This document shows, in pieces, positions 39,750 to 53,424 of a DNA stretch of 64,000 nucleotides. Where the stretch lies: NCBI RefSeq assembly GCF_017726655.1, contig NZ_CP072308.1:2849791-2913790 (forward strand). The letters are read 5' to 3'. The notes under the pieces were generated by a model. That model ran no database searches. It was not told the DNA's origin and saw only the letters and a list, made by a program, of their open reading frames with translations. A program made the translations under genes and the position numbers. Within the stretch, counting starts at the first letter, position 1. Each line of letters starts with the position of its first letter. The stretch is from Agrobacterium tumefaciens (GTDB taxonomy: Bacteria; Pseudomonadota; Alphaproteobacteria; Rhizobiales; Rhizobiaceae).

Positions 39750-40808
39750 TTAATCTTTGATCACCATCAGATCGTTGGCGGCAAATTTCAGCGTTACTTG
39801 CTCGCCAACGGCCGGGGGCGCCGTGCCGGGATCGTTGAACATGTCGAAAGACAGGGTCGACCCGCCGAGATCAAGACGGGTACGGATGACGGAGCCAAGG
39901 AACTGACTGGAGGTGACGATGCCTGATATCGCGACATCACCCTTGGCGTCCGCGCCAAGCGCGCCGGCTTCCGGCCGCAAGGCCAGCGTGATTTTTTCGC
40001 CATTGGCCGCTTCCACCGGTCGCGGCAGGGTGATCTGCTGATCGCCGACGCGTATGACGTTCGCCGCGGCATCCACGACGATCGCGTCGATAAGGTTGAG
40101 CGTACCGACGAAGGAGGCGACGAAACGGGTGGCAGGCTTGTTGTAAATATCGAAAGGCGAGCCGATCTGGTCGGCGCGGCCGCCGTTCATGACAACGATG
40201 CGGTCGGAAATCGACAGCGCCTCTTCCTGATCGTGGGTCACAAAAATGGTGGTGATGCCGAGCTTCTGCTGGATCTGGCGGATTTCTTCGCGCAGCGACA
40301 CGCGGATCTTGGCGTCGAGGGCAGAAAGCGGTTCGTCCAGCAGAAGCACTTCCGGTTTCGGTGCGAGCGCGCGGGCAAGCGCCACGCGCTGCTGCTGGCC
40401 GCCCGACATCTGGTAGGGGTAACGGTCCGCCAGATGCTCCAGATGGATGAGCTGGAGCATTTCCTTCACGCGGGCTTCGATCTCGGCTTTCGGCCTGCCG
40501 GCGACTTTCAGGCCAAAGGCGACGTTTTCAAAGACGTTCATGTTCGGAAACAGGGCGTAGGCCTGGAAAACCATGCCGATGTTGCGCTGGTTCGGTCTGA
40601 GCGCCGTCTGGTCCTTGCCATTGATGACGATGGAGCCGCCGGTCGGCGTTTCAAAACCGGCGATCATGCGCAGCACGGTTGTCTTGCCGCAGCCCGATGG
40701 TCCAAGGAAAGAGACGAACTCACCCTTCTCGATGGCCATGTTGAAATCATGCACGACCTGCACGGAGCCGAAGGATTTCTTGATGTTGCTAAGTGTCAAA
40801 AATCTCAT
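39750..40808 (-). CDS. ABC transporter ATP-binding protein (PotA/FbpC-like)
   Basis: 352 residues from ATG 40808 (MRFLTLSNIKKSFGSVQVVH). Walker A is GPSGCGKTTVLRMI near 38, the Q loop MVFQAYALFPNM near 82, signature MSGGQQQRVALARAL near 134, Walker B VLLLDEPLSALD near 153 and the His loop VTHDQEEAL near 190. A C-terminal TOBE/OB regulatory domain from about 240 (RPEAGALGADAKGDVAISGI) is typical of importers for polyamines, iron, phosphonates or sulfate. It energises the two permeases directly upstream in the operon. Confidence 0.95.
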   Translation of the reverse strand: MRFLTLSNIKKSFGSVQVVHDFNMAIEKGEFVSFLGPSGCGKTTVLRMIAGFETPTGGSIVINGKDQTALRPNQRNIGMVFQAYALFPNMNVFENVAFGLKVAGRPKAEIEARVKEMLQLIHLEHLADRYPYQMSGGQQQRVALARALAPKPEVLLLDEPLSALDAKIRVSLREEIRQIQQKLGITTIFVTHDQEEALSISDRIVVMNGGRADQIGSPFDIYNKPATRFVASFVGTLNLIDAIVVDAAANVIRVGDQQITLPRPVEAANGEKITLALRPEAGALGADAKGDVAISGIVTSSQFLGSVIRTRLDLGGSTLSFDMFNDPGTAPPAVGEQVTLKFAANDLMVIKD

Positions 40809-40821
40809 GAAAATCTTGTCC

Positions 40822-41604
40822 TCAGGCCTTGGGAGGCGCGCCCTTCTGATAACGGGAAACGAGTTGGATGAGACCGAGGCAACCCCAGGTGATGCCAAAC
40901 GAAATCACGGCAAGTGCTGCCGGTTCATAAGCGCGGTTGGCGCCGAGCAGCTGCATGTAGGGGCCGAAGGCCGGGCGGTTCAAAAGGGCCGCCATGGTGA
41001 ATTCACCGATGACGATGGCGAAGGTCAGAAATGCGCCCGACAGCACGGCGACCAGGACATTGGGCAGGATGATGCGCGACAGGATGGTGGTCCATCCCGC
41101 GCCGAGGCTCTGCGCCGCTTCGGTTAGTGTGGCCACGTCGATGGTTCGAAGACCGGTATCGACGGCGCGGTACATATAGGGCAGGGCAAGCGTGGCGTAA
41201 CCGAACATCAACAGCAGGTTGGTGCCGAAGCTTGTTCCCGTCAGCGGCAGCCAGCTCGAGGTATTGTAAAGCCTGATATAACCGAAGACGATGACGATGG
41301 CGGGGATGACCAACGGCAGAAGCGTGATGAATTCGATATAGGGGCGCAGGCCCGGCAGTTTCAGGCGCACCCAATAGGCGGTTGGCACAACAAGCAGAAC
41401 ACCGAAAACGATGGTGAAAAGCGCCATCACGACGGAATAGCTGAAGGTTTCCTGAAAGCGTGGATCGGTCAGCACCCTTGCATAGGCGTCGAAGGAATAT
41501 TCGCCGCGCCGCATCTTCAGGGAGAAATTGGTCATGCCGATCAGCGGCAGGGCGAAATAGAGCAGGCCGAAAATCAGCGCGCCCCAGGCGAAGAAACGCT
41601 TCAT
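40822..41604 (-). CDS. ABC transporter permease (second, PotC-like)
   Basis: 260 residues from ATG 41604, which overlaps the previous permease stop in ATGA; the longer frame to 41922 is an artefact of the overlap. Six hydrophobic segments and the EAA loop (TLTEAAQSLGAGWTTILSRIILP near 160-183) mark a BPD-type inner-membrane permease. It pairs with the product of the next upstream gene as the heterodimeric membrane part of the importer. Confidence 0.93.
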   Translation of the reverse strand: MKRFFAWGALIFGLLYFALPLIGMTNFSLKMRRGEYSFDAYARVLTDPRFQETFSYSVVMALFTIVFGVLLVVPTAYWVRLKLPGLRPYIEFITLLPLVIPAIVIVFGYIRLYNTSSWLPLTGTSFGTNLLLMFGYATLALPYMYRAVDTGLRTIDVATLTEAAQSLGAGWTTILSRIILPNVLVAVLSGAFLTFAIVIGEFTMAALLNRPAFGPYMQLLGANRAYEPAALAVISFGITWGCLGLIQLVSRYQKGAPPKA

Positions 41605-42485
41605 TTCAGCCACCTTTCGCTGCGGGCGCGCAGCCAGATATAAAGTGCGTTGGCGATGCCGGTCACGACGATCATGCCGAAGGCGAGCGCGTAACCGAGA
41701 TGCGGATTGCCAAGAACGTCGCCGCGGATCTGCGCAAAAAGCAGGATCGGCACGATATTGAGAGAGGAGCCGGTCAGCGCGATAGCGGTCGCGACGGCGC
41801 CGAAGGCGTTGGCGAAAAGCAGCGACATGGTTCCGAGCAGCGAGGGCAGCAGGATCGGGAAGGCCACCATGCGCCAATATTGAAAACCGGTCGCGCCGAG
41901 AATTTCCGCAGCCTCGCGCCATTCGCGTTTCAGGCCGTCAAGCGCCGGGGTGATGATGAGGATCATCAGCGGAATCTGGAAGAACAGATAGGTGACCGTC
42001 AGGCCCCAGAAAGACAGGATGTTGAAGCCAAGGAGCCTCAGGTCAATGCCGACCTGCGTCTTCAGAAAGACTGTCAGCAGACCGACCGGGCCGAGCGTTG
42101 CGATGAACGCAAAGGCAAGCGGCACGCCGGCAAATTGCGAGGCGACGCCGGAAAAAGTGAGAAGTGGGCCGCGAATGCGCTGCGGCAGACCGCCGAGCAC
42201 CACGGCTGCGGCCACGGCAAAGCCGATCAGACAACCGAGTGCGGCAGAGGCGAGACTGATCTTTATCGAGATCCAGTAGGCCGAAAGGATGGAGGCGGTA
42301 AAAAGTCCCTGGATGTTTTCCAGCGTGAAAGTGCCGTCTGTCCGCTGAAATGCGCCAATGACGATCTTCATCGTCGGCATGATCAGAAACAGCAGCACAA
42401 AAACGGCAAAAGGTACGACGCCTATCCAATGCAGCGGCAGCTTTCTGCCCGCGTCGGATGGTCCGGCGGTGTTGGTTGATGGCAT
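41601..42485 (-). CDS. ABC transporter permease (first, PotB-like)
   Basis: 294 residues from ATG 42485 behind GGGGACAAGG; an in-frame TTG at 42497 is an alternative. About six membrane segments and the EAA loop (EAAEILGATGFQYWRMVAFPILLP near 190-212). It belongs to the polyamine/iron/phosphonate-type import permeases. The stop codon overlaps the start of the second permease by four bases, so both subunits should be made together. Confidence 0.93.
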   Translation of the reverse strand: MPSTNTAGPSDAGRKLPLHWIGVVPFAVFVLLFLIMPTMKIVIGAFQRTDGTFTLENIQGLFTASILSAYWISIKISLASAALGCLIGFAVAAAVVLGGLPQRIRGPLLTFSGVASQFAGVPLAFAFIATLGPVGLLTVFLKTQVGIDLRLLGFNILSFWGLTVTYLFFQIPLMILIITPALDGLKREWREAAEILGATGFQYWRMVAFPILLPSLLGTMSLLFANAFGAVATAIALTGSSLNIVPILLFAQIRGDVLGNPHLGYALAFGMIVVTGIANALYIWLRARSERWLK

Positions 42486-42545
42486 CCTTGTCCCCAAACG
42501 CCGTTTTAAAACGGTCTGTCTATGAAGGTCTAGATCATAAAAGAA

Positions 42546-42574
42546 GCACCCCGGACTTCGAGGGTCCGGGGTGC
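42546..42574 (-). terminator. Hairpin between binding-protein and permease genes
   Basis: An 11-bp perfect stem (GCACCCCGGAC / GTCCGGGGTGC) with a seven-base loop, followed on the minus strand by TTCTTTT. Such hairpins after binding-protein genes cause partial termination or protect the upstream mRNA, giving more binding protein than permease. Confidence 0.75.
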
Positions 42575-42585
42575 GTTTTCAACAG

Positions 42586-43692
42586 TTACTTCACGTTTGC
42601 GCCAACGACGCTGTCCCAGCCGCCGGTCACGGCAGCCTTGTTGGCATCAACTTCCTCGAGTGTCGGGAAGATTGCCTTTTCGTAGGCAGCTGCCGGCGGC
42701 AGGCTGTCGATGAGTTCCTGCGGAACCTTGCCGGCCTTGACCATCGCGTTGAAGCGGATCGGGTGGCAATAACCCTTCAGCCAGCCAAGCTGGCCGTCGT
42801 CCGAATAGAGGTGTTCCATCCACAGCTTTGCAGCGTTCGGATGCGGTGCGTAAGCGGAGATGCCCTGAACGTAGACACCAGCGAGAACGCCCTTCTCGGG
42901 AACAACGACTTCTGTCGGCGGGTTGTCGTTCAGCGTCTTCCTCCAGGAAAGCGCGTTATAGTCCCAGGCAACGATGATCGGCGTTGCGCCCTGTGCGAGC
43001 GTGCCGGCCTTGCCGATGGTCGGCAGGAAGTTGCCCGCCTTGTTGAGATCGGCGAAGTATTTCAGGCCCGCTTCACCGGCTTCCTTACCGGATTTCGCAC
43101 CGGTTGCGAGACCGGCGGCGAGAACACCGAGAATCGCCTGGTTGGAGGCGCGCGGGTCACCCGCAAGTGCGACCTGGCCGGAATAGTCAGCCTTCAGAAG
43201 GTCTGCCCAGTCCTTCGGCGTTTCCTTGACCAGATCCTTGTTCACGAAGAAGGACATGACGCCGTAATAGTCGCCGTACCAGTAACCTTCGGGATCCTTG
43301 ACGTTGTCAGGAATTTCGTCCCAGGTGGAAACCTTGTAAGGCTGCAGCAGGCCTTCGGCCTTCATCTGCGGGCCGAAAGCGAGACCCACGTCGATGACGT
43401 CAGGCGCCTGCGGACCCTTATTGTCCTTGTTCGCCTTCACTGCTTCCACTTCGTCGGCAGAGCCGGCGTCCGGGTTCAGTTCGTTGACGGTGATCTCCGG
43501 GTACTTTGCCTTGAAGGAAGCGATGACGTCGCCATAACCGCACCAGTCGTGCGGCAGCGCGATCGTTGTGAGCATGCCTTCCTTCTTGGCAGCGGCGATC
43601 AGTTCGGCGCTCGGTTCAGCGGCAGCAATGGCGGTGGATGCAATGACCAGCGCGGTGGTTGTAGCAAGCAGTCGGCGGCAGTGAGAGATCAC
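42586..43692 (-). CDS. ABC transporter periplasmic substrate-binding protein (family 1, AfuA-like)
   Basis: 368 residues from GTG 43692 with GAGGAG upstream. A signal peptide (about 1-25, TTTALVIASTAIAAAEP) leads to a mature protein starting ELIAAAKKEGMLTTIALPHD. The fold belongs to the family 1 solute-binding proteins that include iron, thiosulfate, polyamine and 2-aminoethylphosphonate binders; motifs APDVIDVGLAFGPQM and GVMSFFVNKDLVKE are seen. The ligand is not known from sequence. It is the first structural gene of the importer operon, downstream of the RpiR gene. Confidence 0.92.
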   Translation of the reverse strand: MISHCRRLLATTTALVIASTAIAAAEPSAELIAAAKKEGMLTTIALPHDWCGYGDVIASFKAKYPEITVNELNPDAGSADEVEAVKANKDNKGPQAPDVIDVGLAFGPQMKAEGLLQPYKVSTWDEIPDNVKDPEGYWYGDYYGVMSFFVNKDLVKETPKDWADLLKADYSGQVALAGDPRASNQAILGVLAAGLATGAKSGKEAGEAGLKYFADLNKAGNFLPTIGKAGTLAQGATPIIVAWDYNALSWRKTLNDNPPTEVVVPEKGVLAGVYVQGISAYAPHPNAAKLWMEHLYSDDGQLGWLKGYCHPIRFNAMVKAGKVPQELIDSLPPAAAYEKAIFPTLEEVDANKAAVTGGWDSVVGANVK

Positions 43693-43981: not shown

Positions 43982-44860
43982 TCACGTTCTGTCCGGACGC
44001 CGGAAAAGGCGTGTCTGTTCAAACAGGCCCTCCAGTGCGTTCATGCGTTCCTTGGTTTCATCCCATGTCCCGCTCTGCACCGCTTCGATCAGCGCCTCGA
44101 CGACGAACAGGGTTACGACAGACGAATCCCACGCGGACGGGGCCTCGATCTTCACCCGGAAAATATGCAGTGCATGGCGCGCCACCGGCGATGTCCACTG
44201 GTCTGTAAAGAGGATGATCTGCACCCCATTTGCCTTCGCCACCTCGGCAAGCGTGGTCATATCGTGCTCGTAGCGGCGAATGTCGAAGATGACGAGCACG
44301 TCACCAGCGCTCATGTTCAGCATATATTGCGGCCAGGCGCTGGAATTGGACGACATCAGAGCCGTCTTCGGCCGGATCACCTGCATGTGGGTGAAGAAAT
44401 ATTCGGCAATCGCACCGGTAATACGACCGCCGACGAAATAGATGCTGCGCTTGCGGTCTGACAAAAGTGCTGCGGCATTGTCGAAGACGGCGGTGTCGAG
44501 ATCACCAAGCGTATCGCGCAGATTGCCGGTAATGGCGTCGGCGAAGCGGTTGAGAATGTGCAGGCCGGGCGCATTGGTTGCCCAGCGGTCATGTTTGGCG
44601 ACGGGGCCGGAGATCGTCGCTTCCAGTTCCTGATGTAAGTGCGCCTGAAACTCGGGGTAGCCCCTGTAGCCCAGCTTTTGAACCATGCGCGCCACTGTCG
44701 GCGTGGAAACGCCTGCATTTTCAGCGATGGTGGTGATGCTGCCGAGACCGGACATGGGATAGTTGCCGAGCAGGCTCTCCGCCAACCGTTTTTCCGAACG
44801 GGTCAACGCGTCGTAATGGGCATGAATGACATCCGAGACGGTCGCCGTCGTGCTGCGCAA
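43982..44860 (-). CDS. RpiR/MurR family transcriptional regulator
   Basis: About 292 residues from TTG 44860, which lies six bases after AAGGGG; ATG 44908 is in frame but has no ribosome site, and the frame continues to 45052. An N-terminal HTH_6 domain is clear (LTRSEKRLAESLLGNYPMSG, then ITTIAENAGVSTPTVARMVQ) and a SIS sugar-phosphate-type effector domain follows (IYFVGGRITGAIAEYFFTHM; SAGDVLVIFDIRRYEHDM). It lies between the ABC operon on its own strand and the divergent amidohydrolase operon, so it could control both. Its effector need not be a sugar phosphate. Confidence 0.9.
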   Translation of the reverse strand: MRSTTATVSDVIHAHYDALTRSEKRLAESLLGNYPMSGLGSITTIAENAGVSTPTVARMVQKLGYRGYPEFQAHLHQELEATISGPVAKHDRWATNAPGLHILNRFADAITGNLRDTLGDLDTAVFDNAAALLSDRKRSIYFVGGRITGAIAEYFFTHMQVIRPKTALMSSNSSAWPQYMLNMSAGDVLVIFDIRRYEHDMTTLAEVAKANGVQIILFTDQWTSPVARHALHIFRVKIEAPSAWDSSVVTLFVVEALIEAVQSGTWDETKERMNALEGLFEQTRLFRRPDRT

Positions 44861-44938
44861 ACTTTTCCCCTTCCGGTCTTCTGCCGGTGTGATTGCTAAA
44901 ATAAACATCTGTGCGCGCTGCCGAGTCAATGGGAAAAA

Positions 44939-44954
44939 TGAAGAGAAAATTTCA
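44939..44954. promoter_or_regulatory. Candidate RpiR operator
   Basis: TGAAGAGAAAATTTCA contains the inverted pair TGAA-N8-TTCA, a spacing seen in RpiR-family sites. It lies just upstream of the putative -35 element of the rightward operon, in the divergent region next to the RpiR gene. Assignment is inference. Confidence 0.4.
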
Positions 44955-44963
44955 AAATTCCAT

Positions 44964-44992
44964 TTGACACTGGCTGCAATGTGAAGAATTCT
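44964..44992 (+). promoter_or_regulatory. Putative sigma-70 promoter of the amidohydrolase operon
   Basis: TTGACA at 44964..44969, a 17-base spacer and AATTCT at 44987..44992, about 45 bases before the start of the amidohydrolase gene. The -35 is perfect, the -10 is weak, as expected for a regulated promoter. Confidence 0.5.
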
Positions 44993-45036
44993 TTTCGGCG
45001 TTAACGGAACGCGGGGGTTCCGGGTGGGGTGCGTGC

Positions 45037-45810
45037 ATGTCGCTGCGGTCACGGTTTTTCACAGAAGCGGAAGGGCAGGCCGTCGGCGTCGAGAACGCTG
45101 AGGGCAAAGGTGATATCCTTCTCGTCTGCGAGCATGCCTCTGCCGCCATTCCACAGAAATACGGCACGTTAGGTCTTTCGCCCGATGTGCTTTCCAGCCA
45201 TGCCGCATGGGATCCCGGTGCTCTTGCCGTTGCCCGGCTGCTATCGCAGAAATTCGATGCGACGCTGGTTTATCAACGCTTTTCGCGTCTCGTCTATGAT
45301 TGCAACCGCCCGCCCGAATCGCCTTCCGCCATGCCGGTGAAGAGCGAGATTTACGATATTCCCGGCAATTTCGATCTCGATGAAGCGGAGCGTTTTGCCC
45401 GCACCTCGGCGCTTTACGTGCCGTTTCATGATCAGGTGAGCGAGATCATCGCCTCGCGGCAGGCTGCCGGCCGCAAGGTGGTGGTGGTGACGATCCATAG
45501 TTTCACGCCGGTTTATCATGGTCAGTTCCGCGAGGTGGAGATCGGCATCCTGCACGATAGCGACAGCCGGCTTGCGGACGCGATGCTGGCCGGTTCCGAG
45601 GGGGCATCGCTCACCGTCAATCGCAACGATCCATACGGACCGGAAGACGGTGTGACCCACACGCTGCGGCTGCATGCGCTGCCTAACGGGCTTTTGAACG
45701 TCATGATCGAAATCCGCAACGATCTTATCACTGATGGGGGAGAGCAGGCGGAGATCGCCGCTTTTCTTTACGAGCTTATGGGGAAAGCACTCGCATCGAT
45801 AGACGAGTGA
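45037..45810 (+). CDS. N-formylglutamate amidohydrolase family protein
   Basis: 257 residues. The fold marks of the family are present: ILLVCEHASAAIPQKYGTLG near 27-46, WDPGALAVARLL near 59, RLVYDCNRPPESPSAM near 85 and VVVTIHSFTPVYHG near 150-163, with histidines suited to bind zinc. The founding member HutG hydrolyses N-formylglutamate in histidine degradation, but there is no other hut gene here. Being the first gene before an amine permease, a glutamine-synthetase-like ligase and two dehydrogenases, it more likely cleaves a gamma-glutamyl amide to free glutamate (inference). Confidence 0.85.
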   Translation: MSLRSRFFTEAEGQAVGVENAEGKGDILLVCEHASAAIPQKYGTLGLSPDVLSSHAAWDPGALAVARLLSQKFDATLVYQRFSRLVYDCNRPPESPSAMPVKSEIYDIPGNFDLDEAERFARTSALYVPFHDQVSEIIASRQAAGRKVVVVTIHSFTPVYHGQFREVEIGILHDSDSRLADAMLAGSEGASLTVNRNDPYGPEDGVTHTLRLHALPNGLLNVMIEIRNDLITDGGEQAEIAAFLYELMGKALASIDE

Positions 45811-46031
45811 GGGAGCAGGGGCGGCCGACGGTGAACACATCGGGGCCTGCCATCAAAAGGAGACTGCCGCCATCCGATCAATCCGGTCAAAGAAGCCGGG
45901 AAAAGAAGCGGCACGGGAACAGCAGATGCGTGCGGCGCGATCCGGGAATTCCCTGACGGCGTCGAAGACTGGGGCACAATCGGCCAATCCTGGCTGACTG
46001 GCTTGTTTTTTTCTTATCAGGAGAGAAGGGC

Positions 46032-47546
46032 ATGGACAGTTCATCATCAGGCGTCAGCTACAAGAAGGCTGATGCATCCTATTTCGAAAAACGCGGACTA
46101 TCCCGTTATGCGGGCGTTTGGTCGCTCTGGGCGCTTGGCGTCGGAGCGGTCATCTCAGGGCATTTTTCTGGATGGAATTTTGGCTTTTCCACCGGCGGCT
46201 GGGGCGGCATGCTGGTGGCGGGCATCATCATCGCCGTCATGTATATCGGGCTGACATTTTCGATCGCTGAAATGAGCCCGGCGCTGCCGCATACGGGTGC
46301 AGCCTATTCCTTCGCCCGCACGGCCATGGGGCCATGGGGCGGCTTCATTACCGGACTTTGCGAGAATGTCGAATATGTGCTGACGCCGGCGGTCATCGTC
46401 ACGTTCATCACGGCTTATATGAACTCCATTCTGGGGCTCGATCCTGCCTATTCACCCTTTGTGTGGATAGGTTTCTATGTGATCTTCCTTGCTCTCAACG
46501 TTTTCGGGCTGGAGCTTTCCTTCAAGGTGACGCTGGTCATCACGCTGATTTCGCTCGGCGTTCTGGTGTTCTTCTGGATCAGCGCCATTCCGAACATGGA
46601 TTTCTCCCGATATGCGCTGAACATCGGCGTCGGCCCGGATGGCAAGGCGGTGGAGTTGCCGGAGGGCGGCGGATCCTTCTTCCCCTTCGGTTTTTCGGGC
46701 GTTCTCGCCACGCTGCCCTTTGCGGTCTGGCTGTTCCTCGCCATCGAACAATTGCCGCTGGCGGCCGAGGAATCCGTCGATCCGAAGCGCGATATGCCGA
46801 AGGGCATCATCCTCGGCGTGATTACTCTGATGGTTTCGGCCTTCATGATCGTGCTGCTCAATCCGTCCCTGCCGGGCGTCGGCGCCTTCCATCTCAGCTC
46901 CTCGCTTGAGCCGCTGCTGGATGGCTTCAAGGCGATTTACGGCGATGGCGGCGTGGTGCTGCTTGGCATCGTCGCGCTCACCGGCCTGATCGCGAGCTTC
47001 CATACGATCCTTTATGCGCAGGGCCGGCAGATCTATTCGCTATCGCGGGCCGGGTACTTCCCGACCGTGCTTTCCATCACCCACTCGAAATACCGCACTC
47101 CCTTCGTGGCCAATATCGCCGGCGCTCTCGTTGGTCTTGCAGTCATGCTGGTCATCTGGTTCGCACTGGGCGCGGAACAGGGCGGCAGCATCATCGGCAG
47201 CGTGCTTCTGAACATGGCCGTGTTTGGCGCGATGTTCTCCTATATCCTGCAGGCGATTTCCTTCATCCTGCTCCGGAAAAACCTGCCGCATATAGAGCGG
47301 CCGTTCCGCTCGCCCTTCGGCATTCCGGGTGCGGTGCTGACTGTTATCATCGCCATCGTTACACTGCTTTACCAGATCCAGGATCCGAACTTCAGCAAGG
47401 GCGTGCTGTGGGTAGCGGTCTGGTTTGCCGTGGCGATCGCCTATTTCGCCTTCATCGGGCGCCATCGCCTCATCCTGTCGCCGGAAGAGGAATTCGCGCT
47501 GGAGCATAAGCAGGCGGCTATGGCCGCGGCAGCTGCAAAAGCCTGA
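46032..47546 (+). CDS. APC family permease, ethanolamine-permease-like
   Basis: 504 residues, about twelve membrane segments. The N-terminal part (LWALGVGAVISGHFSGWNFG near 33-52) and the following FSIAEMSPALPHTGAAYSFA near 78 are characteristic of the ethanolamine permease (2A0305) branch of amino acid-polyamine-organocation carriers. A GGAGAGAAGG ribosome site fixes the start. It should import an amine or amino alcohol across the inner membrane for the enzymes encoded downstream. The 221-base gap from the amidohydrolase gene has no terminator-like hairpin. Confidence 0.88.
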   Translation: MDSSSSGVSYKKADASYFEKRGLSRYAGVWSLWALGVGAVISGHFSGWNFGFSTGGWGGMLVAGIIIAVMYIGLTFSIAEMSPALPHTGAAYSFARTAMGPWGGFITGLCENVEYVLTPAVIVTFITAYMNSILGLDPAYSPFVWIGFYVIFLALNVFGLELSFKVTLVITLISLGVLVFFWISAIPNMDFSRYALNIGVGPDGKAVELPEGGGSFFPFGFSGVLATLPFAVWLFLAIEQLPLAAEESVDPKRDMPKGIILGVITLMVSAFMIVLLNPSLPGVGAFHLSSSLEPLLDGFKAIYGDGGVVLLGIVALTGLIASFHTILYAQGRQIYSLSRAGYFPTVLSITHSKYRTPFVANIAGALVGLAVMLVIWFALGAEQGGSIIGSVLLNMAVFGAMFSYILQAISFILLRKNLPHIERPFRSPFGIPGAVLTVIIAIVTLLYQIQDPNFSKGVLWVAVWFAVAIAYFAFIGRHRLILSPEEEFALEHKQAAMAAAAAKA

Positions 47547-47559
47547 TGCTCACAAACAC

Positions 47560-47582
47560 GGGCGGCCGGATCCCGGCCGCCC
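47560..47582. repeat. Intercistronic hairpin between permease and ligase genes
   Basis: A perfect 10-bp stem GGGCGGCCGG-ATC-CCGGCCGCCC without a U run, 13 bases after the permease stop. It may stabilise mRNA ends or shift the expression ratio within the operon. Confidence 0.6.
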
Positions 47583-47610
47583 GGTCACGACAATAAAGGG
47601 AACGGACAAT

Positions 47611-48978
47611 ATGACGAGCTACACATTCGACGCGCTTAAGATGGATGTCGCCGAGGGCCGCATCGACACGGTTCTGGCCTGCCTTGTGGACATGCAGGGG
47701 CGTCTGATGGGCAAGCGGTTCCAGGCCGAATTCTTCGTCGAAAGTGCCTATGAGGAAACCCATAGCTGCAACTACGTGCTTGCCACCGACATGGAGATGG
47801 AAACCGTTCCTGGGTACAAGTCCTCCAGCTGGGAAAAGGGTTACGGCGATTATGTGCTGAAGCCGGACCTTTCGACGCTGCGGCGTGTGCCGTGGCTGGA
47901 AGGCACGGCGCTGGTGCTCTGCGACGTGCTCGATCATCACACACACGAGGAGGTGCCGCATTCCCCGCGCGCGATGCTCAAGAAGCAGGTGGCGCGGCTG
48001 GAGGCCATGGGACTGAAAGCTTTTATGGCGACCGAGCTGGAGTTCTTCCTGTTCGACCAGACCTTCGATGCGGCGCGCGCCAATGGTTACAAGGGTCTGA
48101 ACCTTGCTAGCGGCTATAATGAGGACTACCATATCTTCCAGACGACCAAGGAAGAGGACGTCATGCGCACGCTGCGCAAGGGCTTGCAGGGCGCCGGCAT
48201 TCCCGTTGAAAATTCCAAGGGCGAGGCGTCTCCCGGTCAGGCGGAAATCAACGTGCGTTATGCCGAGGCGCTGACCATGGCCGACCGGCACGCCATCATC
48301 AAGAATGCCACCAAAGAGATCGCCTGGTCGAAGGGTAAGGCGGTGACGTTCCTCGCCAAGTGGAACTACAATGCCGCCGGCAGTTCTTCCCACATCCACC
48401 AGTCGCTGTGGAGCCTCGACGGCAAGACCCCGGCGTTTCTGGACAAGAACGCCGAGCATGGCATGTCGCAGCTGATGCGGCATTATGTTGCCGGGCTTCT
48501 GGCCCATGCCAGCGAGATCACCTATTTTCTGGCACCCTACATCAATTCCTACAAGCGGTTCATGGCCGGCACGTTTGCGCCGACCAAGGCGATCTGGAGC
48601 CTCGACAACCGCACGGCGGGATATCGTCTGTGCGGGGAGGGCACAAAGGGCATCCGCATCGAGTGCCGTGTCGGTGGCTCCGATCTCAATCCCTATCTCG
48701 CCATGGCCGCCCTTCTTGCGGCGGGCATTGACGGCATCGAAAATAAACTCGAACTTGAGCCCGCTTTTGTCGGTGACGCCTATGGCGGCAAGGACGTGCG
48801 CGAGATACCCAAGACATTGCGTGACGCCACCGCCTTTTTGGACGGATCGACAATGTTGCGCGACGCATTCGGCGACGATGTGATCGATCATTACGTCCAT
48901 GCCGGACGGTGGGAACAGGAAGAATACGACCGCCGCGTGACCGACTGGGAAGTGGCGCGCGGTTTCGAACGAGCGTGA
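47611..48978 (+). CDS. Glutamine-synthetase-like gamma-glutamyl-amine ligase
   Basis: 455 residues from ATG 47611 behind AAGGGAACGG. It carries the GS beta-grasp and catalytic domains: FMATELEFFLFDQTF near 140, SPGQAEINVRYAEAL near 209, GSSSHIHQSLW near 258 and RFMAGTFAPTKAIWSLDNRT near 313. Sequence style and length match the GlnA-like ligases PuuA, IpuC and GlnA4, which join glutamate to putrescine, isopropylamine or ethanolamine, rather than true GlnA (no conserved NRSA-x-R adenylylation context). With an ethanolamine-type permease upstream, an amino alcohol is the likely acceptor (inference). Confidence 0.88.
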   Translation: MTSYTFDALKMDVAEGRIDTVLACLVDMQGRLMGKRFQAEFFVESAYEETHSCNYVLATDMEMETVPGYKSSSWEKGYGDYVLKPDLSTLRRVPWLEGTALVLCDVLDHHTHEEVPHSPRAMLKKQVARLEAMGLKAFMATELEFFLFDQTFDAARANGYKGLNLASGYNEDYHIFQTTKEEDVMRTLRKGLQGAGIPVENSKGEASPGQAEINVRYAEALTMADRHAIIKNATKEIAWSKGKAVTFLAKWNYNAAGSSSHIHQSLWSLDGKTPAFLDKNAEHGMSQLMRHYVAGLLAHASEITYFLAPYINSYKRFMAGTFAPTKAIWSLDNRTAGYRLCGEGTKGIRIECRVGGSDLNPYLAMAALLAAGIDGIENKLELEPAFVGDAYGGKDVREIPKTLRDATAFLDGSTMLRDAFGDDVIDHYVHAGRWEQEEYDRRVTDWEVARGFERA

Positions 48979-49008
48979 GATCATGGCGTTGTTGAAATCT
49001 CAATTTTA

Positions 49009-49031
49009 GAGGATATTGTTGCTATTACCTC
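49009..49031. promoter_or_regulatory. Imperfect palindrome upstream of the toxin-antitoxin pair
   Basis: GAGG...CCTC arms around an AT-rich centre within the 68-base gap between the ligase and antitoxin genes. A site for autoregulation by the XRE antitoxin is possible; symmetry is only partial. Confidence 0.3.
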
Positions 49032-49046
49032 AATGGAGGCGCGACA

Positions 49047-49469
49047 ATGATTAATGATCGGATTGATAAGGCGTGGTTTTCGCAACAGTTAAAGAAAAGG
49101 GGCGGGAGTCAAGCTGACTTGGCTCGCTTCCTGAGGCTGGACCGAAGCGCGGTGACACGCATGTTAAATGGGGAACGGAATATGAGCGTGGAGGAGCAAG
49201 ACCGGATTGCCGAATATCTCGACGTTCCCGTCGGCGACGTCGCTCTTCATCGTCGGGGTGGTGCCGCCGGTTTTTCCGAAAACAGCCAGGCGACCTATGC
49301 CGGGCCTGCTTCGTCCCGAGGACAAGGTCGCGACGTGCGTAACGTCGGTGCGGCGGAACGTCGACATCCGATTTTCGGTTGTATGAAAGGCACTATTACT
49401 GTCATGCCAGATGTGGACCTCACCGAACCCGTAGATTTTGAATGGGGAGAAAAGCTCTACAATGAGTGA
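49047..49469 (+). CDS. XRE-type antitoxin
   Basis: 140 residues from ATG 49047, with GGAGG seven bases ahead. Residues 18-62 form a Cro/C1-type helix-turn-helix (GSQADLARFLRLDRSAVTRM). A flexible middle is followed by a tail (MKGTITVMPDVDLTEPVDFE near 114) of the sort that small antitoxins use to fill the groove of PIN toxins. The stop overlaps the PIN gene by eight bases (ATGAGTGA), the usual coupling of antitoxin and toxin. It probably represses its own promoter as well. Confidence 0.85.
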   Translation: MINDRIDKAWFSQQLKKRGGSQADLARFLRLDRSAVTRMLNGERNMSVEEQDRIAEYLDVPVGDVALHRRGGAAGFSENSQATYAGPASSRGQGRDVRNVGAAERRHPIFGCMKGTITVMPDVDLTEPVDFEWGEKLYNE

Positions 49470-49878
49470 CGGCATCCTTCTCGATACATGTGCGGTGATC
49501 TGGATGTCACAGGGTGAGCCTGTTTCGGACGAGGCGGTCAATGTCTTGAACCAGTCCTATCAGGCGGGCAATCCTGTTTGCGTCTCTGCCGTCACCGCAT
49601 GGGAGATGGGTATGCTGGTTGCGAAGGGACGCCTCAGTGAGACCAAAAGTCCCCAGCGTTGGTACGACGATTTTAAAAGGGAGGCCGAAGTCATCGAGCA
49701 GCCGGTGACTGCGGATATTTTTATCGCATCCTGTTTTCTTCCTCAGCTTGCTCATAAAGACCCGATCGATCGTATTTTGATTACGACGGCGCGAGAACAC
49801 GACCTCACCATCATCACACGCGACCGCGTCATCCTGGCCTATGGCGAAGCCGGCCACGTGAAGACTTTAGCCTGTTAG
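49462..49878 (+). CDS. PIN domain toxin (VapC-like)
   Basis: 138 residues from ATG 49462. The PIN nuclease acids are in place: the first Asp in GILLDTCAVIWM near 8, Glu in VSAVTAWEMGML near 46, Asp in LAHKDPIDRILI near 99 and Asp in LTIITRDRVI near 118. VapC-type toxins cut tRNA or rRNA when freed from their antitoxin. The stop is only 17 bases before the aldehyde dehydrogenase start, and no terminator intervenes, so the pair is embedded in the amine operon. Confidence 0.9.
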   Translation: MSDGILLDTCAVIWMSQGEPVSDEAVNVLNQSYQAGNPVCVSAVTAWEMGMLVAKGRLSETKSPQRWYDDFKREAEVIEQPVTADIFIASCFLPQLAHKDPIDRILITTAREHDLTIITRDRVILAYGEAGHVKTLAC

Positions 49879-49895
49879 AACCGGAGTTACTTGGC

Positions 49896-51284
49896 ATGAC
49901 CATGATCCAGAATATCTCGCCCATCGACGGCTCGGTTTATGCCGAGCGGGAGGCGATGTCGCTGGAGGCGGCGCGGGCCGCCGTTTCGAAGGCGCGCAAG
50001 GCGCAGAAGGACTGGGCGCGTCGTCCGCTCGAGGACCGCGTTCAGCTGGTTCTGAAGGGCGTCGCACGCCTCAATGAAATGGTGGATGAGGTCGTGCCGG
50101 AACTCGCCCACATGATGGGCCGTCCGGTGCGTTATGGCGGTGAGTTCAAGGGTTTCAACGAGCGCTCCAACTATGTCGCCTCCATTGCCGCCGATGCGCT
50201 GGCGCCGCTCGTCATCGAGGAAAGCGGCAATTTCGAACGTCGCATCGAGCGTGAGGCGCATGGCGTCGTCTTCGTTATCGCGCCGTGGAACTATCCTTAC
50301 ATGACGGCGATCAACACCGTCGCGCCCGCCTTGATGGCCGGCAACACAGTCGTCATCAAGCATGCGGCGCAGACGCTGCTGGTGGGTGAGCGCATGGTGC
50401 GGGCTTTCGTCGAAGCCGGTGTGCCTGACGATGTCTTTATCAATGTCTTCCTCGACCACGGCACGACGTCGGCACTGATTTCCGAGGGCCTTTTCAACTT
50501 CGTCAACTTCACCGGTTCGGTGGAAGGCGGACGTGCCATCGAGCGCGCCGCGGCCGGCACCTTCACTGGCCTCGGGCTCGAACTCGGCGGCAAGGACCCC
50601 GGCTACGTGATGGAGGATGCCGATCTGGACGCCGCCGTCGATACGCTGATGGATGGTGCGACCTATAATTCGGGGCAATGCTGCTGCGGCATCGAGCGTA
50701 TTTACGTCAACGAAAACCTCTATGACGCCTTCGTCGAGAAGTCCGTGGCGTGGGTTTCCAATTACAAGCTCGGCAATCCGCTGGAACAGGAGACCACGCT
50801 TGGGCCGATGGCCAACAAGCGTTTCGCAAAAGTCGTTCGCGCGCAGATTGCCGATGCCGTCGCGAAGGGGGCCAAAGCACTGGTCGATCCAAAGCTGTTT
50901 CCCGCCGATGATGGCGAGAGCGCCTATGTCGCGCCGCAAGTCCTCGTCAATGTCGATCATTCCATGGAATTCATGACCGAGGAGACCTTCGGCCCGGCTG
51001 TCGGCATCATGAAGGTGAAGAACGATGACGAAGCCATCGCGCTGATGAACGACAGCAAATACGGCCTGACCGCTTCGCTGTGGACGCAGGATGCCGCCCG
51101 CGCCGGGCGCATCGGCCGCGAGATCGAAACCGGTACCGTGTTCATGAACCGCGCTGATTATCTCGACCCGGCGCTTTGCTGGACCGGTGTGAAGGAAACG
51201 GGCCGTGGCGGTTCGCTCTCTGTCCTCGGTTTCCAGAACCTGACCCGCCCGAAATCCTACCATCTGAAGAAAGTCACGAAATGA
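49896..51284 (+). CDS. Aldehyde dehydrogenase (NAD(P)-dependent)
   Basis: 462 residues, on the short side for the family but complete. It begins with IQNISPIDGSVYAEREAMSL, has WNYPYMTAINTVAPALMAGN near 132 for cofactor binding, FTGSVEGGRAIERAAAG near 205, the general base Glu in LELGGKDPGYV near 228, and the catalytic Cys in NSGQCCCGIERIYV near 262. The TGA stop overlaps the ATG of the iron dehydrogenase gene, so both oxidations are coupled in expression. In the proposed pathway it would oxidise gamma-glutamyl-aminoaldehyde to the acid (inference). Confidence 0.93.
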   Translation: MTMIQNISPIDGSVYAEREAMSLEAARAAVSKARKAQKDWARRPLEDRVQLVLKGVARLNEMVDEVVPELAHMMGRPVRYGGEFKGFNERSNYVASIAADALAPLVIEESGNFERRIEREAHGVVFVIAPWNYPYMTAINTVAPALMAGNTVVIKHAAQTLLVGERMVRAFVEAGVPDDVFINVFLDHGTTSALISEGLFNFVNFTGSVEGGRAIERAAAGTFTGLGLELGGKDPGYVMEDADLDAAVDTLMDGATYNSGQCCCGIERIYVNENLYDAFVEKSVAWVSNYKLGNPLEQETTLGPMANKRFAKVVRAQIADAVAKGAKALVDPKLFPADDGESAYVAPQVLVNVDHSMEFMTEETFGPAVGIMKVKNDDEAIALMNDSKYGLTASLWTQDAARAGRIGREIETGTVFMNRADYLDPALCWTGVKETGRGGSLSVLGFQNLTRPKSYHLKKVTK

Positions 51285-52426
51285 ATATCGTCGCCAACTG
51301 GAGTTATCCCACCGCCGTCAAGCTTGGCCGTGGCCGGATCAAGGAACTGGCGGAAGCCTGCAAGACGCTCGGCATCAAAAAGCCGCTTCTCGTTACGGAT
51401 CGCGGCCTTGCCAATATGGCGATTACCGCGCATGCGCTCGATGTGCTGGAGGAGGCGGGTCTCGGCCGGGCGATCTTCGCCGAGGTCGATCCGAACCCCA
51501 ACGAAATCAACATGGAAGCGGGTGTGAAGGTCTATCGCGATGGCGGCCATGATGGCGTCGTGGCATTCGGCGGCGGCTCGGGGCTCGATCTCGGCAAGAC
51601 CATTGCCTTCATGGCCGGGCAAACGCGCCCGGTCTGGGATTTCGAAGATATCGGCGACTGGTGGACCCGCGCGGACGCTTCCAAGATCGCGCCTATCGTT
51701 GCCGTTCCGACGACGGCCGGCACCGGTTCGGAAGTTGGCCGCGCCAGCGTCATCACCAATTCGCAGACGCATGTGAAGAAGATCATCTTCCATCCGAAGC
51801 TTCTGCCAGGCGTCGTCATCTGCGATCCCGAACTGACGGTGGGCATGCCGAAGGTCATCACGGCCGGCACGGGCATGGACGCCTTTGCACATTGCCTCGA
51901 AGCCTATTCGTCGCCGTTCTTCCACCCGATGAGCGCCGGCGTGGCGCTGGAGGGTTTGCGGCTCGTCAAGGAATTCCTGCCGCGGGCCTATAAGGACGGC
52001 ACGGATATCGAGGCGCGCACCAACATGATGGCTGCGGCGGCCATGGGGGCGGTTGCCTTCCAGAAGGGGCTTGGCGCCATCCACTCGCTCTCGCATCCGA
52101 TCGGCGCTGTCTACAACACCCATCACGGCATGACAAATGCCGTCGTCATGCCGGCAGTGCTGCGCTTCAACCGTCCGGCAATCGAGGACAAGATTGCCCG
52201 CGCCGCTGCCTATCTTGGCATTTCCGGCGGTTTCGACGGCTTTTATGACTATGTGCTGAAGCTTCGCAAGGAACTCGGCGTGCCGGAGAATCTCACCGCC
52301 ATGGGCATCAAGCCGGATCGCATCGACGAACTGGCGGCGGAAGCGATCAAAGACCCCAGCTGCGGTGGCAATCCGGTGCCGATGACGCTGGAAAATACCA
52401 AGGCGCTTTTTGAGGCTTGCTTTTAA
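51281..52426 (+). CDS. Iron-containing alcohol dehydrogenase
   Basis: 381 residues from ATG 51281, overlapping the previous stop by four bases. Family III motifs are present: VVAFGGGSGLDLGKTIAFMA near 90 for NAD binding, PTTAGTGSEVGRASV near 143, GTGMDAFAHCLEAYSS near 195 and HSLSHPIGAVYNTHHGMTNA near 266; the Asp and three His residues for iron are in place. It would oxidise a primary alcohol such as the hydroxyl of a gamma-glutamylated amino alcohol (inference). It is the last gene of the operon. Confidence 0.93.
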   Translation: MNIVANWSYPTAVKLGRGRIKELAEACKTLGIKKPLLVTDRGLANMAITAHALDVLEEAGLGRAIFAEVDPNPNEINMEAGVKVYRDGGHDGVVAFGGGSGLDLGKTIAFMAGQTRPVWDFEDIGDWWTRADASKIAPIVAVPTTAGTGSEVGRASVITNSQTHVKKIIFHPKLLPGVVICDPELTVGMPKVITAGTGMDAFAHCLEAYSSPFFHPMSAGVALEGLRLVKEFLPRAYKDGTDIEARTNMMAAAAMGAVAFQKGLGAIHSLSHPIGAVYNTHHGMTNAVVMPAVLRFNRPAIEDKIARAAAYLGISGGFDGFYDYVLKLRKELGVPENLTAMGIKPDRIDELAAEAIKDPSCGGNPVPMTLENTKALFEACF

Positions 52427-52472
52427 AGGGCATCTTTTATTCGTCAGGCTTGTTTGAGATCGAGGGCGTGCT

Positions 52473-52508
52473 GCTGGTTTCTTCTCCCGACGGGGAGAAG
52501 AAACCAGC
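52473..52508. repeat. Perfect 16-bp inverted repeat
   Basis: GCTGGTTTCTTCTCCC and its exact complement around the four bases GACG. The CTTCTCCC...GGGAGAAG core is a common intergenic palindrome in Rhizobiales. It lies 46 bases after the iron dehydrogenase stop and may end or protect that transcript, though no U run follows. Confidence 0.75.
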
Positions 52509-52707
52509 GGCAACGTCGCGCCGGAACGAGCTAGGATACGATCTCCAGCCCATGAAGCCCACGATGAGCCCATCGCCGGCGTTTCTCATAGCGCTTCGTC
52601 CCGGCGTTAGCGTTTTATTAACCCTGTTCGTTAAGATTGTAGAAAGCACCATGAAGTGCGTCGGTGCGAGAATGAGCATGAAACGGCTCTGACGAACAGG
52701 GGGTATC

Positions 52708-53424
52708 ATGTCAGTCATCACTTTCGCCAATACCAAGGGCGGCGCGGGGAAAACCACGGCCGTGCTGCTTCTGGCAACCGAATTGGCCCGTAGCGGCCAT
52801 CGCGTGACGGTCCTCGATGCCGATCCGCAATTGTGGATTTCCCGCTGGCACGAACTCTCGGGCGAGATCGAAAATCTCTCGGTGATTTCGCATGTGACGA
52901 TGGCCTCGCTTGAGGGACACATTCGCGAGAACCGGGCCAACACTGACTGCTTCATCATCGATCTTCCGGGCGCAAAGACGCCCCTTCTGACCATGGCGCT
53001 CGGAATTTCCGATCATGTTCTGATCCCGGTTCAGGGCTCAGCCATGGATGCGCGCGGTGCTGCCGAAGTTCTTGATCACATCGAATTCCTGAACCGCAAG
53101 ATGGGCAAGGAGATCGCCCATTCCATCGTGCTAACGCGGGTCAATGCCATGGTCGCGACGCGTTCGCTGTTGCTCGTGAAGATGCTGCTTTCGGAAAAGA
53201 ACGTGTCGATGCTGAACACGGCGATTGTCGAGCGGGCGGCTTATCGCGATATTTTCGACCATGGCGGAACGCTTCTCTGTCTGGATGGCAAGAAGGTCAG
53301 CAATATCGACAAGGCGGTCGAAAACGCGGCGGCTTTCGCCGAGGAAATCATCAACCTCCTGCCGAAAAGACTTCCGAGGCGCGTTGCTCATCTGGCGCGT
53401 TTGGTGACACGCAGGGCTGCCTGA
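52708..53424 (+). CDS. ParA/VirC1-like ATPase, orphan
   Basis: 238 residues. The deviant Walker A motif is KGGAGKTTAVLLLA at 10-23, followed by VTVLDADPQLWISRWHEL near 33 and the IIDLPGA motif near 87 (Walker A-prime and B). The tryptophan-rich RW-containing stretch after DADP is as in VirC1, the Ti-plasmid protein that helps move the T-DNA complex, and other short ParA proteins. There is no parB, parS-like repeat or conjugation gene nearby. It is made as a single gene with a CAGGGGG ribosome site. Its cargo is unknown. Confidence 0.88.
   Translation: MSVITFANTKGGAGKTTAVLLLATELARSGHRVTVLDADPQLWISRWHELSGEIENLSVISHVTMASLEGHIRENRANTDCFIIDLPGAKTPLLTMALGISDHVLIPVQGSAMDARGAAEVLDHIEFLNRKMGKEIAHSIVLTRVNAMVATRSLLLVKMLLSEKNVSMLNTAIVERAAYRDIFDHGGTLLCLDGKKVSNIDKAVENAAAFAEEIINLLPKRLPRRVAHLARLVTRRAA

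Follow-up and report, generated by a model that had tools for sequence, protein, structure and literature searches.

The XRE-PIN cassette and its host operon

In a 64,000-nucleotide (nt) stretch of Agrobacterium tumefaciens DNA (the window), we found seven genes on the + strand, at 45037-52426, which probably encode the known pathway of ethanolamine gamma-glutamylation with an apparently exchangeable VapBC-like cassette embedded in it. The cassette, a gene pair for an XRE-type antitoxin-like protein and a PIN-domain protein, is located between the ligase gene and the aldehyde dehydrogenase (ALDH) gene; it is this cassette, not the pathway, that is new. Gene content, gene order, the fixed slot, conserved catalytic residues and the discordance between cassette alleles and operons are direct observations on sequences. 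The pair itself reads as an exchangeable toxin-antitoxin slot, for which we infer toxicity, function, route of exchange and benefit.

Gene models were open reading frames (ORFs), characterized by Pfam and NCBIfam profile scores relative to the model cut-offs. The earlier note on this DNA had described five genes transcribed from a single promoter. The coordinates, order and families of the five, as well as the ATGA overlap of the ALDH and iron alcohol dehydrogenase (ADH) genes, were seen again; two more genes on the same strand, XRE (49047-49469) and PIN (49462-49878), had been missed. Since a toxin-antitoxin-type pair sits within the operon, the picture of five genes and one promoter is incomplete. 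The genes of the operon, its divergent regulator and the gap upstream of the cassette are as follows.

43982..44908, - strand: RpiR/MurR-type regulator (HTH_6 and SIS domains; PF01418, 59.5 bits; PF01380, 102 bits), divergent from the operon
45037..45810, + strand: FGase-family hydrolase, probable gamma-glutamylglycine amidohydrolase (GGAH), Atu2144 orthologue (PF05013, 147 bits)
46032..47546, + strand: APC-family permease, probable ethanolamine importer (PF13520; TIGR00908, 358.5 bits)
47611..48978, + strand: glutamine synthetase (GS)-type ligase, probable ethanolamine gamma-glutamylase (PF00120, glutamine-synthetase C domain, 339 bits)
48979..49046, + strand: gap between ligase and antitoxin genes, possible promoter/operator of the XRE-PIN pair, with AATCTCAA at 48996-49003
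49047..49469, + strand: XRE/HTH_3 antitoxin-like protein (PF01381, 34.8 bits)
49462..49878, + strand: PIN-domain VapC-like putative toxin (PF01850, 48.4 bits)
49896..51284, + strand: ALDH, probable gamma-glutamylacetaldehyde-amide dehydrogenase (PF00171, 388 bits)
51281..52426, + strand: iron ADH, probable gamma-glutamylethanolamide dehydrogenase (PF00465 and PF25137)

A fold search was used for the PIN protein because its profile had no match among PDB sequences at E 0.01. The top Foldseek matches of the AlphaFold model (pLDDT 91.4) include VapC, FitAB and VapBC, and the protein is thus predicted to fold as a VapC/FitB-type toxin, with toxicity presumed. Residues D8, E48, D103 and D121 are invariant in all 57 in-operon PIN copies (54 of them distinct). 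The XRE protein combines an N-terminal helix-turn-helix (HTH) domain with a C-terminal tail, an arrangement conserved in 13 aligned copies. A PADLOC search gave only weak HTH matches for the antitoxin and none for the toxin. The pair is read as a putative VapBC-like cassette and not as a pathway enzyme, with the XRE protein predicted to neutralize the toxicity of its partner. Variability is concentrated in the middle of the cassette: mean pairwise identity is 0.39 in the N-terminal half of the toxin (toxin N-half) and 0.69 at its C-terminal end (C-end). The toxin of VapBC complexes is held by the antitoxin tail, and the variable middle plausibly corresponds to this recognition interface.

The spacing of the cassette is tight. 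Median spacings over the 57 in-operon copies are 54 nt from ligase to XRE, an overlap of 8 nt between XRE and PIN (8 nt in the window as well) and 18 nt from PIN to ALDH. The XRE-PIN overlap is 4-26 nt in 56 copies, with a 5-nt gap in the other one; three related copies have 116-117 nt between PIN and ALDH, and one PIN gene runs 10 nt into the ALDH gene. The commonest word found upstream, AATCnCAA, occurs in 26 of 54 distinct cassette gaps and in none of 54 cassette-free gaps (of at least 40 nt), the maximum in shuffled sequences being 6. This pattern would fit, as expected, an operator belonging to the XRE-PIN pair itself.

Distribution of the cassette

The ligase loci used for comparison were the best 80 of at least 592 relatives of the window's ligase. 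Twelve of them carry an XRE-PIN pair, in every case between ligase and ALDH genes (Neorhizobium, several Rhizobium and one Rhizobiales isolate). Among 39 genomes of the window's genus, a close PIN gene was found only in the window's own genome and in G007 (95% identity); three others have relatives at 29%.

At the family level (346 genomes), the ligase is present in 264 genomes at E <= 1e-150 and some PIN protein in 124 at E <= 1e-10. When PIN matches were ranked by score and the top 50 (one per genome, all with at least 131 bits) were considered, 47 of them, from 26 genera, turned out to lie 446-573 nt after the ligase gene on the same strand. The next match in rank (118 bits) is on a contig different from that of the ligase.

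At the class level, 21 of 385 genomes, the window's included, have a PIN match at E <= 1e-25. The PIN loci compared, from 11 of the 20 other genomes, have no ligase within their flanks, which are of 1.5 kb or less. Some of them have unrelated neighbours, namely genes for coproporphyrinogen oxidase and cytochrome b (L148) or DprA and a zinc alcohol dehydrogenase (L149); in the family genome G057, a primase gene lies downstream of PIN. In L149 and L151, loci of two genomes that belong to a single genus of the class, the XRE-PIN pair adjoins the same zinc alcohol dehydrogenase gene, with dprA on the other side in L149, hinting at other fixed addresses for toxin-antitoxin pairs of this type.

A decayed cassette was observed at L125 (G181:C9), where the last 50 PIN residues are left ∼100 nt past the ligase gene. 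This remnant in G181 is the sole clear one seen; a search of the 68 cassette-free gaps of the best 80 loci produced 25 weak tblastn matches (best E 0.031), none of them convincing.

Discordance between cassette alleles and operons

Cassette presence, mapped on a ligase tree with 82 rows of which 14 are carriers, requires 13 changes, 14 being the maximum. We compared close pairs of operons, defined by ligase DNA identity of 0.88-0.975 (18 pairs, 17 of them distinct, several sharing a row). Mean third-position identity in these pairs is 0.79 in ligase and ALDH and 0.54 in the HTH region; it is 0.51-0.52 over the stretch between the middle of the antitoxin and that of the toxin, and 0.68 at the toxin C-end. 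Clearly different cassettes are present in 11 of the 17 distinct pairs, with identity of 0.34-0.66 over antitoxin tail and toxin N-half.

Two kinds of profile can be distinguished in 75-nt bins. In L063/L086, L066/L104 and L074/L107, identity is 33-80% within the cassette and 77-100% from the toxin C-end into ALDH; in L121/L128 and L115/L131, it stays low through the cassette end, as if the cassette had been replaced whole. The PIN tree rejects sisterhood of L066/L104, L074/L107, L046/L103 and L121/L128 (p 1.8e-4 or less, a descriptive value for pairs picked after discordance had been seen).

Besides this choice of pairs, a number of observations weigh against an exchangeable slot. Matching cassettes (0.80 or more) are kept in 6 of the 17 distinct close pairs. 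Sisterhood of L063/L086 in the PIN tree is not rejected (p 0.14), and the window and G007 cassettes pair as sisters, in agreement with their operons. PIN distances are correlated with ligase distances (Mantel r 0.48, with none of 999 permutations as high), so descent contributes. Next to the window's cassette there is no visible tract of donor DNA: measured in 100-nt bins, identity to cassette-free loci of the Agrobacterium group is ∼80-99% up to the junction (L013, L015 and L016, which lost register in part of the ligase, were left out there). Three of the 50 best PIN matches lie off the junction, in G057 and G119, which have no ligase at E <= 1e-100, and in G151, on another contig. A different word is common to 32 of the 54 cassette-free gaps, so that relatedness alone could yield counts such as those for AATCnCAA. 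Finally, absence of the cassette from most operons argues against an essential role.

Possible roles of the cassette

The proposed course of events is as follows. The cassette would come and go at one junction between species of the family, and different alleles, each with a variable antitoxin tail and toxin N-half and a more conserved toxin C-end, would come to occupy this junction in closely related operons. Alleles would be swapped most simply by recombination in the flanking operon genes. As the most likely mechanism of maintenance, a PIN ribonuclease held by the XRE antitoxin would penalize loss or replacement of the cassette, which could thereby persist in the operon as a passenger, selfish or protective.

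The single junction and the tight median spacing to both neighbours over 57 copies (apart from the three with the longer PIN-ALDH gap of 116-117 nt), along with the upstream word shared by 26 of 54 gaps, would also suit a local regulator of the operon. The XRE protein would then repress an internal promoter and the PIN RNase would trim the transcript, tuning ALDH and ADH relative to the ligase to avoid build-up of aldehyde. We consider this explanation unlikely given that just 47 of the 264 ligase-bearing family genomes have a top-50 cassette at the site (a count in which more diverged cassettes could be missed), that a close PIN is present in 2 of the 39 genomes of the window's genus, that the antitoxin tail and toxin N-half are variable with alleles differing between close operons, and that related XRE-PIN pairs elsewhere adjoin unrelated genes. 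A regulatory role that is necessary is argued against because the cassette is sporadic and variable.

Could the pair be an ordinary toxin-antitoxin insertion with no special tie to the operon, shaped by common descent, fast divergence and frequent loss? The Mantel correlation and the PIN C-end left beside the ligase in G181, which shows loss, are in line with this idea, and XRE with PIN is among the known type II combinations (a table in PMC2701414 counts 67 such pairs). Still, 47 of the 50 best PIN matches at one junction are not random insertion, the PIN tree rejects sisterhood for four chosen pairs of close operons, and the fall in third-position identity from 0.79 to about 0.51 inside the cassette is not readily explained by faster protein change alone. 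We therefore doubt that ordinary insertion is the explanation.

A stronger version of the exchangeable slot can be offered tentatively. The cassette might be a family-wide polymorphic toxin-antitoxin locus in which incompatible XRE-PIN alleles, with specificity residing in the swappable middle segment, replace each other by means of homology in the flanking metabolic genes and so police exchange of the operon, i.e. a bacterial killer-allele system. Whatever the role, a toxin-antitoxin pair that keeps one chromosomal address, in many allelic forms, within a conserved metabolic backbone provides a direct route to asking what purpose chromosomal toxin-antitoxin systems serve (addiction, defence, operon tuning or a barrier against replacement of alleles). 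Natural experiments are at hand in close operons that differ in the presence of the cassette or in its allele.

The probable ethanolamine operon

The comparison of gene order proposed in the earlier note shows the order RpiR-FGase-carrier-ligase-ALDH-FeADH to be kept among the best 80 of at least 592 loci. ALDH and ADH genes are downstream of the ligase in all 80, and FGase and RpiR (RpiR before FGase) are present in 78; the two others, L038 and L063, have just 1.5 and 3.1 kb of DNA upstream of the ligase. Co-occurrence of this gene set is far beyond chance. Among the matches listed, the six ligase loci nearest to that of the window show 96-98% identity; five carry the name Agrobacterium, and Rhizobium rhizogenes is the closest, which points to an Agrobacterium-group chromosome as the probable source of the window.

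A carrier occupies the slot between FGase and ligase in 78 of 78 loci; 43 of them have an APC permease of the L029 type, 20 a permease like that of the window and 15 a TRAP system. The binding protein of the TRAP system in L026 has a match of 552 bits to 4uab, which is given in PMC12410723 as the structure of Csal_0678 with ethanolamine. That three distant or unrelated carriers share one slot, and that one of them has a known ligand, is good evidence for ethanolamine or a close analogue as the substrate.

All enzymatic steps in this strain are predicted. The permease would import ethanolamine, which the ligase would couple to glutamate at the expense of ATP, yielding gamma-glutamylethanolamide; the iron dehydrogenase would convert the latter to the aldehyde and the aldehyde dehydrogenase would turn this into gamma-glutamylglycine, to be split by the FGase-family hydrolase into glycine and glutamate. 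The RpiR protein is likely the regulator of the operon.

Synteny, carrier swaps and published work on orthologous operons lend good support to this route from ethanolamine to glycine and glutamate, proposed in the earlier note; the proposal itself is already in print. PMC10132767 describes in Phaeobacter sp. MED193 the operon RpiR-GGAH-EtoV-EtoW-EtoX-ETAGA-GAADDH-GETADH, whose proteins are raised on phosphoethanolamine and whose EtoX binds ethanolamine (Kd 7.9 uM); it also names, with reference to Vetting et al. 2015, C. salexigens and A. tumefaciens C58. PF00120, PF00465, PF00171 and PF05013, tabulated in PMC9397018 for the C. salexigens pathway, are present together in the window operon. Characterization of GlnA4 was reported in PMC6529630, where an FGase-family enzyme is proposed to cleave gamma-glutamylglycine; this 2019 proposal takes away the novelty that the earlier note saw in a gamma-glutamyl hydrolase of the HutG family. 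As a pathway, the operon is one more genomic instance of a known ethanolamine route, and it speaks against the hydrolase being HutG. Two points detract from the pathway assignment: PMC6529630 terms the C. salexigens pathway predicted in silico, and the permease score falls short of its model cut-off. The best NCBIfam model for this protein is the ethanolamine permease model TIGR00908 (358.5 bits versus 381.75). Absence of a eut route fits as well: a search of the window's genome (G000) with the EutB profile PF06751 gave no match, the E. coli positive control being detected.

The hydrolase matches PDB entry 2odf ('Hypothetical protein Atu2144') over its full length with 515 bits. Its identification as HutG was rejected, and the label 'HutG-family' is too loose: TIGR02017 scores 21.3 bits, its cut-off being 278.75, and a separate HutG (paralogue L002, 402 bits) is encoded elsewhere in the genome. 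The same genome contains a second non-HutG gene of the FGase family, L004 (G000:C2:1357632-1358249), 28% identical to the window hydrolase, and a further divergent one, L005 (G000:C2:468675-469310), at 96.8 bits. For the ligase, the closest solved structures are 11zs (686 bits) and 5dm3 (661 bits), the next best having 183 bits; identification as PuuA gamma-glutamylputrescine synthetase was rejected (NF045547, 205.8 bits versus a cut-off of 650). An operon for breakdown of N-formylglutamate (histidine) or putrescine, which the membership of PF05013 and PF00120 might suggest, is most improbable with such scores for the HutG and GGputSyn models, with HutG elsewhere in the genome and with no polyamine oxidase or aminotransferase found among the seven genes.

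Carrier families vary between operons, so specificity may vary too. A second PDB entry, 4xf5, exists for the Csal_0678 sequence; it is a complex with 2-amino-1-propanol. A related amino alcohol (alaninol, serinol or isopropanolamine) could by the same chemistry give alanine or another amino acid and glutamate. Such a natural substrate seems decidedly improbable, as the binding and induction data for the syntenic Phaeobacter operon in PMC10132767 concern ethanolamine and phosphoethanolamine and, by the account in PMC12410723, 4uab contains ethanolamine.

Transcription signals and neighbouring genes

A consensus scan of 44850-52750 found promoter-like sites at a number not above chance (2 versus 2.9 in shuffled sequences) and 14 terminator-like sites versus 7.6 (standard deviation 2.8). 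The hydrolase and permease genes are separated by 221 nt. One of the latter, in the permease-ligase gap, is a hairpin of 11 G+C pairs at 47559-47583, with a T-rich tail on the minus strand. Internal transcript ends are thus possible.

Beyond the RpiR gene, at 39750-43692 on the - strand, are divergent genes of an ABC transporter (a binding protein, two permeases and an ATPase). The binding protein has weak similarity to 2-aminoethylphosphonate-binding models and, along with one permease, was found in 73 of 73 full-length related loci; the transporter may be part of the same regulon as the operon. Downstream of the operon, a ParA/VirC1-like ATPase is encoded at 52708-53424, with a relative in 58 of the 73 loci (median identity 59%).

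Comparison with known systems

Among the papers listed in searches of the open-licence PMC literature, none was found to report a toxin-antitoxin pair within an ethanolamine operon. The operon of Phaeobacter sp. MED193, as described in PMC10132767, is the same in regulator family, enzyme roles and gene order; it has a TRAP carrier where the window has an APC permease, and its gene list there does not include the XRE-PIN pair that the window has between ligase and ALDH. The GlnA4 pathway of Streptomyces coelicolor (SCO1611-1615, PMC6529630) likewise starts with a gamma-glutamylethanolamide synthetase and has a proposed FGase-family gamma-Glu-Gly hydrolase. Its gene order differs, and the legend in PMC6529630 has a short-chain dehydrogenase where the later review, PMC9397018, assigns PF00465.

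The cassette shares with VapBC and FitAB type II systems the PIN fold, the acidic tetrad and a small DNA-binding gene overlapping upstream, while differing from them in the XRE-type antitoxin, the fixed slot inside a catabolic operon and the differing alleles. Its domain combination is the same as in the XRE-PIN pairs of PMC2701414; the operon slot and the proposed allele exchange of the present cassette are not mentioned in the account of those pairs.

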